DNA of 64,000 bases from Phycisphaerales bacterium Planc_01 (GTDB lineage: Bacteria > Planctomycetota > Phycisphaerae > Sedimentisphaerales > Anaerobacaceae), in contig LVBB01000144.1 in assembly GCA_001603075.1 (NCBI GenBank), positions 1-64,000 of the forward strand, written 5' to 3'. The translations under genes were made by a program, and so were the position numbers. How positions within the stretch are numbered: the first letter of the stretch is position 1; each line of letters starts with the position of its first letter. The notes beneath the pieces are model-generated. The model was not told the DNA's origin. It worked only from the letters and a program-made list of their open reading frames with translations, and made no database searches. This document shows, one piece after another, positions 26,396 to 29,256 of this stretch.

Positions 26396-27280
26396 ATGAC
26401 CGAGCACCTTTTCTACATCGTAGACGTATTTGCCGAGCGAAAGTATGCGGGCAATCAGCTTGCGGTCTTTCGAAACGCAGGTGATCTGACCGACGACGAG
26501 ATGCAGCAGATCGCACGCGAGATGAACTTCTCGGAGACGACATTCATCCTGTCGGATGCACCGCACGATGGCGGATACGACGTGCGGATCTTCACACCCG
26601 TCGCGGAGGTGCCCTTCGCAGGGCATCCGACTCTGGGAACCGCTTACATCATCCGCCGCGAGATCGTCGGTGAAGACATCACACAGGTCAACCTGAACCT
26701 GAAGCTCAAGCAGATCCCCGTCGCGTTCGGACAGGAGGCGGGCCGCAGCATTCTGTGGATGAAGCAGAAGTCGCCCGACTTCGGGGACACGACGGATCCG
26801 GCGTCGATGGCGGAACTGCTGGGGCTGGCTGTAGAGCAGATCGACACGCGCTTCCCCATCCAGGCGGTCTCGACGGGCCTGTGGTTTGCCATCGTTCCTC
26901 TGAAAGACCTCGAAGCGGTGAAGCAGGCGAGGGTCAACCGTGACAGGTACTTCGCCGAATCGCGACAGAGGAACGAGGACGGCATCCTGGTCTTCTGTCC
27001 CGAGACATACGACCCGAGGGACAATCTGAACGTCCGCGTGTTCGTGCCGCTCTATGGAATCGAGGAGGACCCGGCCACGGGCAGCGGCAACGGCTGCCTG
27101 GCGGGTTATCTCGTCAAGCACCGCTACTGGGGCGACACCCGCATCGACGCCCGCGTCGAACAGGGCTACGAGATCGACCGGCCTTCACTGATCCGCCTGA
27201 GGGCCGGGCAACAGCAGGATGCGATCGACGTCCACGTTGGCGGCAACGTCGTCATGGTCGCGAAAGGACAATGGTTATGA
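26396..27280 (+). CDS. PhzF family isomerase-like protein
   Basis: This is a 294-residue protein of the PhzF/YddE family, which shares the diaminopimelate-epimerase fold. It begins FYIVDVFAERKYAGNQLAVF. The catalytic Glu is probably E47 in MNFSETTFIL. EVPFAGHPTLGTAYII and DPATGSGNGCLAGYLV are the paired phosphate/carboxylate loops. PhzF itself isomerises a phenazine precursor, but most relatives have unknown substrates. It lies 18 nt after a methyltransferase and overlaps the Fe-S gene by 4 nt. It shares its fold with the DapF homologue 1.1 kb downstream. Confidence 0.9.
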   Translation: MTEHLFYIVDVFAERKYAGNQLAVFRNAGDLTDDEMQQIAREMNFSETTFILSDAPHDGGYDVRIFTPVAEVPFAGHPTLGTAYIIRREIVGEDITQVNLNLKLKQIPVAFGQEAGRSILWMKQKSPDFGDTTDPASMAELLGLAVEQIDTRFPIQAVSTGLWFAIVPLKDLEAVKQARVNRDRYFAESRQRNEDGILVFCPETYDPRDNLNVRVFVPLYGIEEDPATGSGNGCLAGYLVKHRYWGDTRIDARVEQGYEIDRPSLIRLRAGQQQDAIDVHVGGNVVMVAKGQWL

Positions 27281-27969
27281 TCGCCAGCCAGACCGTCAAA
27301 GACCTGGCAAGACAACTGGGCGCTGATCTGTGCGGCGTTGCGCCCGCAAGCCGCTTCGATCAGGCTCCGAAGGGATTTCATCCGAGGGACCTGTTCCCGC
27401 AGGTCCGGTCGGTCCTGGCAGTTGCGAAGCGGTTCCCCGAAGGTCCCTTCCATGCGCGCAGCCCGATCCCGTACAGCGTCGCCAACGACATGATCCTCGC
27501 CGAGGTCGGTCGACTGGTCTGTGCGCTTTGCGTCCGGCTGGAAGGCGCGGATCATCTCTGCGCCGTGCCCGTGCCGAGCGAACCGTACGAGTATTGGGAC
27601 GCGCCGAATCGCGAAGGGCGAGGCCTGCTGTCGCTCAAGCACGCCGGTTGGCTGGCAGGACTGGGCGTCATCAGCAAGAACACACTGCTGACCAACCGTG
27701 AGTTCGGCAACCGGATCTGCCTGGGAGCCATCCTGCTGGACGTCGAACTGGAGGGCGATGCGATGGCTGACTACCCGCTCTGCGCCGAGGATTGCCGGCG
27801 CTGTGTCGACGCCTGTCCCGCCCGCGCCATCGACGGCTTGACGGTCAACCAGAAGCGCTGCCGAAGCCACGCGCAAAGCCGGACAGCCAAAGGGGAGCCC
27901 ATCTGCGTCTGCAACAACTGTCGCGCTGTCTGCCCTAACGGCAGAGGCACTCTGGCGGCAAGCGTCTGA
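27277..27969 (+). CDS. 4Fe-4S protein related to epoxyqueuosine reductase
   Basis: This is a 230-residue protein. Residues 120-170 carry LKHAGWLAGLGVISKNTLLT, matching the QueG-like core AGLGxIGKxxLL. Cys clusters follow: CAEDCRRCVDACPARAI (first 4Fe-4S) and CVCNNCRAVCP (second). The upstream 100 residues form the alpha/beta part common to these double-cluster proteins. It is shorter than QueG (about 350 residues) and lacks the HEAT-like C-terminus, so it belongs to the shorter uncharacterised group. It is probably a reductase or electron-transfer protein. It overlaps the PhzF stop as ATGA (ATG 27277). Confidence 0.82.
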   Translation: MIASQTVKDLARQLGADLCGVAPASRFDQAPKGFHPRDLFPQVRSVLAVAKRFPEGPFHARSPIPYSVANDMILAEVGRLVCALCVRLEGADHLCAVPVPSEPYEYWDAPNREGRGLLSLKHAGWLAGLGVISKNTLLTNREFGNRICLGAILLDVELEGDAMADYPLCAEDCRRCVDACPARAIDGLTVNQKRCRSHAQSRTAKGEPICVCNNCRAVCPNGRGTLAASV

Positions 27970-27987: not shown

Positions 27988-28317
27988 ATGCCATCGTTGA
28001 ACACGGAGCAGTTCAATCCCGTGACGCTCTCGATGCCCGTCCAGCACAAGACTCTTGCCACGCGGGCGGGCCTGGGCTGGATCGGCAAGTCGGCCCTGCT
28101 CGTCACCAAGGAGTACGGGCCGGCGGTGCGGCTGGGCTCGGCGCTGACCGATGCCGATCTCCGGACGGGCACGCCGACGGACACCGCGCGCTGCGGCAAC
28201 TGCCGCCAGTGTGTGGACCGCTGCCCGGCCCGGGCCGTCGTCGGGAACAACTGGCAGGCGGGCATGGCCCGCGAAGGCGCAGAACCGGGCGAAGCGATCA
28301 TTGATGAAATCGAGTGA
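27988..28317 (+). pseudogene. truncated copy of a 4Fe-4S epoxyqueuosine-reductase-like gene
   Basis: This 109-codon open frame has only the central part of the family. It begins near VQHKTLATRAGLGWIGKSALLVT, and has one 4Fe-4S motif (CGNCRQCVDRCPA). It then ends without the second cluster. Compared with the intact 230-residue neighbour, about 90 N-terminal residues and the C-terminal cluster region are missing. No start with a good ribosome-binding site is seen. It may be a decayed tandem relative or a short functional protein. The dapF promoter overlaps its 3' end. Confidence 0.6.
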
Positions 28318-28329: not shown

Positions 28330-28380
28330 CCAGATTCGTTTAACGCCGTCAGAAACACGTGTTTTGCAGGGCAGGGGAAA

Positions 28381-29256
28381 ATGGAAGTGGATTTCAAGAA
28401 GTATCACGGGTTGGGCAACGACTATCTGGTGATCGACCCGAACGTGCGGGATGTGGCGATGACCGAGGCGAACGTCCGGCTGATCTGCGACCGCAACTTC
28501 GGCGTCGGCTCCGACGGCATCCTCTACGGGCCGATCCTCGACGGAGACATCCCCAGATTGCGGATTCTCAACCCCGACGGCAGCGAGGCCGAGAAGAGCG
28601 GCAACGGCCTGCGCATCTTCGCCAAGTACCTCTTCGAGAAGAAATACATCCGGTCCAAGACATTCCAGATCAAGACCCTGGGCGGCACCGTTCACGTGCA
28701 GGTCAAGGACGACACCGCGAACCTGATCCGCATCAACATGGGCAAGGTGACGTTCGTCAGCACCGAGATTCCCGTCAGGGGCGAACGCCGCGAGGTGGTC
28801 AACGAGGTGCTGGATGTCAACGGCGTCGATTTCAGGGTGACGTGCCTGTCCATCGGCAATCCACACTGCGTGATCCCGATGGAAGAGGTCTGTGAGGAGC
28901 GGGCCCGCGCGATCGGGCCGTTCGTGGAGAACCACCAGCGGTTTCCCAACCGGATCAACATGCAACTGCTCAAAGTCATCGACCGTGCCAACATCGACAT
29001 CCGCATCTGGGAGCGCGGCGCCGGCTACACACTGGCCTCGGGCAGCAGCTCGTGCGCAGCCGCCTGCGCCGCCCACCGACTGGGCCTGGTGGACAACGAC
29101 ATCACCGTTCACATGCCTGGCGGAAAGCTGCACATCGAGATCATGCCCGACAGTGAAGTCTTCATGACCGGCCCGGTGGAGGGCACCTTCGAGGGCACGT
29201 TCCACGCCGACCTGCTGGAGAGGATATCAAATATCAAAATGAGAGTACCAAGATGA
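28381..29256 (+). CDS. dapF: diaminopimelate epimerase homologue with both catalytic cysteines replaced by serine
   Basis: This is a 291-residue DapF-fold protein. It starts with YHGLGNDYLVID and keeps LNPDGSEAEKSGNGLRIFAK and IWERGAGYTLASGSSSCAAA. In DapF enzymes the two catalytic bases are Cys in ...CGNGxR (position 73 in the Haemophilus numbering) and Cys in TxACGxGACA. Here the first is S73 (AGC) and the second S220 (TCG). Other substrate-binding motifs, such as SIGNPHCV, are intact. DapF interconverts LL- and meso-diaminopimelate for peptidoglycan and lysine. Either a Ser/Ser epimerase, a different racemase or a non-catalytic protein is possible. The last ten residues are encoded inside an AT-rich repeat. 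Confidence 0.85.
   Translation: MEVDFKKYHGLGNDYLVIDPNVRDVAMTEANVRLICDRNFGVGSDGILYGPILDGDIPRLRILNPDGSEAEKSGNGLRIFAKYLFEKKYIRSKTFQIKTLGGTVHVQVKDDTANLIRINMGKVTFVSTEIPVRGERREVVNEVLDVNGVDFRVTCLSIGNPHCVIPMEEVCEERARAIGPFVENHQRFPNRINMQLLKVIDRANIDIRIWERGAGYTLASGSSSCAAACAAHRLGLVDNDITVHMPGGKLHIEIMPDSEVFMTGPVEGTFEGTFHADLLERISNIKMRVPR

Follow-up and report, generated by a model that had tools for sequence, protein, structure and literature searches.

The window, i.e. the whole stretch of 64,000 nucleotides analysed here (contig LVBB01000144.1 of Phycisphaerales bacterium Planc_01), carries a gene for a DapF-family protein, preceded by a plausible ribosome-binding site (Table 1). The protein scored 244.2 bits against TIGR00652 over residues 4–274, where the cut-off is 114.65, and matched PF01678 with 191 bits; this was its sole Pfam match at E ≤ 0.001, and the proline racemase family PF05544 gave none. 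In its motifs NPDGSEAEK-S73-GNGLR and WERGAGYTLA-S220-GSSSCAAA, Ser73 and Ser220 fall exactly on the catalytic Cys pair of solved DapFs. The residue of E. coli DapF that corresponds to Cys225 ('SSSCAAA') is the non-catalytic Cys in 'GACAA', and some relatives (L047, L051 and L100) have Ser at this position.

A sequence-only reading of the window had described this gene as a DapF homologue with serine at both catalytic positions and with the substrate-pocket motifs kept. The ORF, its coordinates, the residue numbers and both codons were as it gave them, and the DAP-contact residues were all retained in the alignment. It had named an alternative alignment and sequencing error as possible refutations. 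The former was ruled out by the flanking GNG and ERGAG..G[ST] blocks, which lock the register so that no Cys can be shifted in, and the latter by Ser at both sites in every Ser/Ser-type planctomycete relative read (50–91% identity). A pseudogene was also ruled out: the frame is intact, dN and dS against L034 were 0.05 and 0.41, and dN/dS against the nearest relatives was ∼0.12–0.2, i.e. purifying selection. A second DapF in the genome, for which the same reading had advised a search, was found neither by protein search nor with the TIGR00652 profile, whose other match there was a stop-containing fragment that scored 16.6 bits, short of the cut-off.

Table 1. Positions of the features discussed (in the window unless a locus is named)
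Feature	Position	Strand	Basis or remark
DapF-family protein, Ser/Ser subfamily, 291 aa, ATG start	28381..29256	+	TIGR00652, PF01678, AlphaFold2 model
Codon 73, AGC (Ser); catalytic Cys73 in E. coli DapF	28597..28599	+	alignment
Codon 220, TCG (Ser); catalytic Cys217 in E. coli DapF	29038..29040	+	alignment
Codon 72, Lys	28594..28596	+	alignment; role putative
Codon 223, Ser, possible helix-cap partner of Ser220	29047..29049	+	role by analogy with Ser90-Asn93 (PMC4113996)
AGGGGAA, plausible ribosome-binding site of the gene	28373..28379	+	read from sequence
PhzF-family isomerase gene	26396-27280
QueG-like Fe-S sequences, two adjoining ORFs	27271-27969; 27988-28317
Ser/Ser gene between thiG-like and thiH-like genes in G023 and G034	L050 6219-9011; L064 2360-5201		named by eye
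Distant Acidobacteriota Ser/Ser DapFs	L044 5962-6840; L045 5956-6846
Cluster-type Ser/Ser DapF-like proteins without Asn160	L095 7956-8852; L097 4998-5942
Cys/Cys dapF near flhG-fliA-like genes	L007, L008, L012, L013, L015, L020, L024, L025, L029, L081, L084, L168, L169 and others

The AlphaFold2 model of the protein (pLDDT 90, pTM 0.85) has the two-domain DapF fold. Its best Foldseek match was the DAP epimerase 9mro (38% identity, TM 0.85), TM was 0.81–0.87 against most DapF structures, and VIA Z against DapF structures was ∼34–36; the DapF-RppH complexes 6d13 and 6vck were among the PDB matches. The top VIA structural match, tied with DapF entries, was the O-ureidoserine racemase DcsC (7vdy, Z 35.8), but this enzyme has 33% identity and another substrate. 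In comparison with the TIGR00652 enzymes of E. coli, H. influenzae and Anabaena (9mro), the protein has full-length homology at 35–40% identity, the same fold, all DAP-contact residues and the same pathway genes in its genome, but both acid/base Cys are Ser. It is a DapF-family homologue outside the Cys/Cys DAP epimerases as defined; because it belongs to the family by sequence and fold while the defining Cys/Cys pair is absent, listing it as a proven diaminopimelate epimerase would be unjustified.

The DAP-contact residues were defined from the Anabaena enzyme structure (PMC12039745), and N13, N64, G74, N75, N160, N193, E211, R212 and G221, with a hydroxyl at 222, were invariant in the planctomycete Ser/Ser rows. 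Fixed residues specific to the Ser/Ser subfamily included Tyr8, Pro65, Lys72, Ile79, Tyr216 and Ser223, the last five of which are rare or absent in planctomycete Cys/Cys DapFs. Position 72 was Lys in 28/28 planctomycete Ser/Ser rows and Met or Gln in Cys/Cys rows, and position 223 was Ser in 28/28 against an invariable Gly. In the proline-racemase superfamily, a catalytic Ser is held by the residue three positions on (the Ser90-Asn93 motif, PMC4113996), to which Ser223, three residues past Ser220, is a possible parallel. Members of that superfamily share the fold and a natural Ser at the catalytic Cys position, but identity to its structures is ∼10–15% and the substrate class differs. The natural 4-hydroxyproline epimerase 4HypE B9JQV3 (Ser/Cys) is active with a catalytic Ser opposite Cys, and t3HypD B9K4G4 (Ser/Thr) is a dehydratase (PMC4113996). 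4HypE thus keeps one thiol, whereas the window protein has a thiol at neither position.

Distribution and history of the Ser/Ser type

A DapF match was present in 76 of the 89 genomes of the window's family, whose DapF genes were read from 30 short loci and 40 longer stretches. Two types were found, Cys/Cys ('EMCGNG...ACGTGACA') and Ser/Ser ('EKSGNGLR...ASGSSSCA'). By genome, 17 had Ser/Ser only, 13 both types, 46 Cys/Cys only and 13 none, where three of the Ser/Ser genes are partial (contig ends or scaffold gaps) and some Cys/Cys calls are by profile score alone. The split genes of G023 and G030 were considered as breaks near the catalytic region and proved to be scaffold gaps (runs of N). 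A scan of 392 genomes of the phylum with a Ser/Ser profile added G145 and G372 to those with the close type and revealed a relative at 43% in G134; the remaining loci were Cys/Cys.

The suggestion of the sequence-only reading that Ser/Ser might be a clade feature was borne out, the pair being invariant in 28 complete planctomycete relatives that group together in the tree. In this maximum-likelihood tree of 91 proteins, whose deep placements are uncertain on account of long branches, all Ser/Ser proteins lay on one side of one branch (95/71) separating them from Cys/Cys, 31 of them were grouped at 100/95, and 96% of bootstrap trees involved a single Cys/Ser change. Divergence within the clade reaches ∼50% identity and the type is spread through several families. 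Ala or Gly was found at neither catalytic position in the 42 Ser/Ser sequences, the hydroxyl always being kept.

Of these 42 sequences, 39 encode the Ser of site 1 by AGY, and all encode that of site 2 by TCN. Either codon type is a single step away from TGY, and the two thus record two old single changes; the three TCN exceptions at site 1 (L101, L044 and L045) may be separate events. The two different Ser codons had been taken at first reading as an argument against a simple single event; the argument is weak because two ordinary substitutions of one base each, TGC to AGC and TGC to TCC, give exactly that.

Outside the phylum, the only DapF found in two Acidobacteriota (G486 and G487) was a distant Ser/Ser type (SGNGTR / ASGT). 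No relative of the Ser/Ser protein was found in viral contigs, and matches in phage and plasmid collections were mostly ordinary DapF by identity and annotation; the top three plasmid matches were read. Plasmid-borne homologues of A. vitis and Streptomyces were Ser/Ser and are currently annotated 'diaminopimelate epimerase'. Their neighbours are annotated as an iron-containing redox enzyme, a 2OG-Fe dioxygenase and a molybdopterin oxidoreductase, and it is by these neighbour genes, not by BelM/HrmT sequences, that L095 and L097 were likened to BelM/HrmT of the belactosin/hormaomycin clusters. The belM and hrmT products have only been guessed to be DAP epimerases (PMC10764440). These proteins share Ser/Ser and group with the planctomycete type in the tree (96/70, long branches) but have lost Asn160, which is kept in the planctomycete clade, and no diiron oxidase, 2OG-Fe oxygenase or molybdopterin oxidoreductase adjoins the window gene (ORFs of 21.3–33.3 kb). 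Our search of the literature outside subscription sources yielded no description of a naturally occurring Ser/Ser DapF.

Pathway context and gene neighbourhood

In the window's genus (g1) and genus g40, Ser/Ser was found in 12 of 15 genomes and Cys/Cys in none, compared with Cys/Cys DapF in 59 of the 74 remaining family genomes; were the genomes independent, the chance of 0/15 would be 0.2^15, or ∼3e-11. All 15 had dapL and murE above cut-off and 13 had a full lysA. DapL produces LL-DAP and LysA requires meso-DAP, and an epimerase is therefore expected in g1 and g40. The meso-DAP dehydrogenase Ddh was not found above cut-off in 31 relatives, a set with all six g1 genomes in it and g40 outside it. 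No extra racemase gene was recognised by eye beside lysA or dapL, and the lysA neighbourhood was alike in Ser/Ser-only and Cys/Cys genomes. In G372 (96% complete), G134 (88%), G486 and G487, which all have lysA, Ser/Ser was again the sole DapF found. Within g1 and g40, no DAP-epimerase candidate other than the Ser/Ser protein was recognised.

The alanine racemase C-terminal domain PF00842 was absent from 86 of the 89 family genomes, including the window's. A PLP-dependent replacement of DapF (DapF2) has been proposed in Staphylococcus (PMC9026213); such an alanine-racemase-type replacement was rejected here by the absence of PF00842, while one without that domain is possible. The source of D-Glu and D-Ala in the family is itself puzzling: PF00842 occurs in 3/89 genomes and the glutamate racemase MurI (TIGR00067) in none of the 89 above cut-off, yet murE is common. 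A chlamydial DapF has been reported to make D-Glu (PMC5885031).

ORFs scanned at 21.3–33.3 kb of the window encode an M20 peptidase, methyltransferases, GNATs, an aminotransferase, PhzF, an Fe-S protein, MetG and RicT. Close relatives share the PhzF, Fe-S (QueG-like), aminotransferase, methyltransferase, GNAT and M20 neighbours, but distant Ser/Ser genomes do not; the neighbours there, named by eye, looked like thiG/thiH (G023 and G034), ribF (G019) or purH (G372). No neighbourhood was common to the whole subfamily, immediate neighbours elsewhere looking like ordinary metabolism, as for a stand-alone housekeeping gene.

Some features of the surroundings were observed in their own right. The PhzF-family isomerase, a member of the DapF fold superfamily, lies upstream of the Ser/Ser gene with only the Fe-S gene between, and it remains nearby in many close relatives. 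The QueG-like Fe-S sequences, likewise kept in close relatives, occupy two adjoining ORFs, the first of which scored 54 bits against the QueG profile, below the cut-off of 200. In the window's family, Cys/Cys dapF often lies close beside flhG-fliA-like flagellar genes, and some genera might have lost this dapF along with their flagella.

Candidate functions of the Ser/Ser protein

DapF and the proline, glutamate and related racemases are described as using a thiolate to deprotonate an alpha-carbon of pKa ∼29. The sequence-only reading had offered a slow or differently tuned epimerase, another racemase activity or a non-catalytic role, all of which retain some probability. The genomes themselves speak for a working DAP epimerase, since they have retained dapL, murE and lysA and no alternative route through an epimerase or a dehydrogenase was recognised in them. 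That the window protein is a DAP epimerase working with a serine pair we regard as the likeliest reading, at about even odds. The gene would be an ancient DapF paralogue still binding diaminopimelate, whose product in the g1/g40 lineage would convert LL-DAP from DapL into the meso-DAP that LysA and MurE use. The thiol/thiolate pair would be replaced by Ser73 and Ser220, both of which sit at alpha-helix N-termini, and these N-termini with Lys72 and Ser223 may help serine to act as a base. Both catalytic activity and DAP as the substrate are what we infer. The full proposal, a natural thiol-free, cofactor-independent Ser/Ser epimerase acting on DAP, sole of its kind in whole genera and feeding lysine and peptidoglycan, is tentative and falls a little short of an even chance.

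Several points weigh against a serine-pair DAP epimerase. The presence of Cys/Cys DapF beside Ser/Ser in 13 relatives suggests that the two are not fully redundant, and a non-homologous epimerase could have been missed, named families alone being searched. E. coli survives mutation of dapF, so a lack of epimerase activity need not be lethal. Cys-to-Ser changes at either site of PddB leave <0.1% activity, with similar M. tuberculosis DapF results cited there (PMC8225329), and single Cys-to-Ser mutants have been used to trap structures (PMC11602996).

It is rather unlikely, though worth serious consideration, that the Ser/Ser protein acts in a different way on an amino acid, DAP-like or not, by one-base isomerisation, by elimination or by racemising an activated substrate, and that DAP is epimerised by an unrecognised enzyme. 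The 13 relatives with both types would fit this, as would the Ser/Ser homologues of A. vitis and Streptomyces in belactosin/hormaomycin-like clusters (PMC10764440) and the Ser/Thr dehydratases of the proline-racemase superfamily (PMC4113996). However, the planctomycete clade shows no variation in the DAP-contact residues, and it is the two cluster-type proteins that lost Asn160; the PhzF, Fe-S, GNAT and M20 neighbours are found mainly in closer relatives of the window; and several lysA-bearing lineages yielded no DapF but Ser/Ser.

A slow or vestigial epimerase, with trace DAP epimerase activity that is enough for slow-growing bacteria, would agree with the trace activity retained by laboratory Cys-to-Ser mutants (PMC8225329). 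We consider it improbable: Ser is fixed at both sites without reversion down to ∼50% identity and through several families, whereas reversion would be expected of a handicap that one base change at each site could cure. Quite improbable, in our view, is a role without catalysis, in which the protein would bind DAP or some other partner, e.g. as a regulator. E. coli DapF binds RppH, the DapF-RppH complexes were among the structural matches, and binding residues are retained with both thiols gone; on the other hand, the unbroken hydroxyl at both positions, never Ala or Gly, speaks against it, and genomes in which neither a further DapF nor Ddh was found would then lack an explanation for their meso-DAP.

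In sum, the Ser/Ser change in DapF is real, ancient and conserved. Whether or not the protein is a DAP epimerase, the annotation 'diaminopimelate epimerase' is unproven for the Ser/Ser subfamily. A conserved natural Ser/Ser subfamily that is the sole DapF found in several lineages makes the thiol requirement directly testable, and if it is inactive as an epimerase, the Ser/Ser-only lineages have an undiscovered source of meso-DAP.
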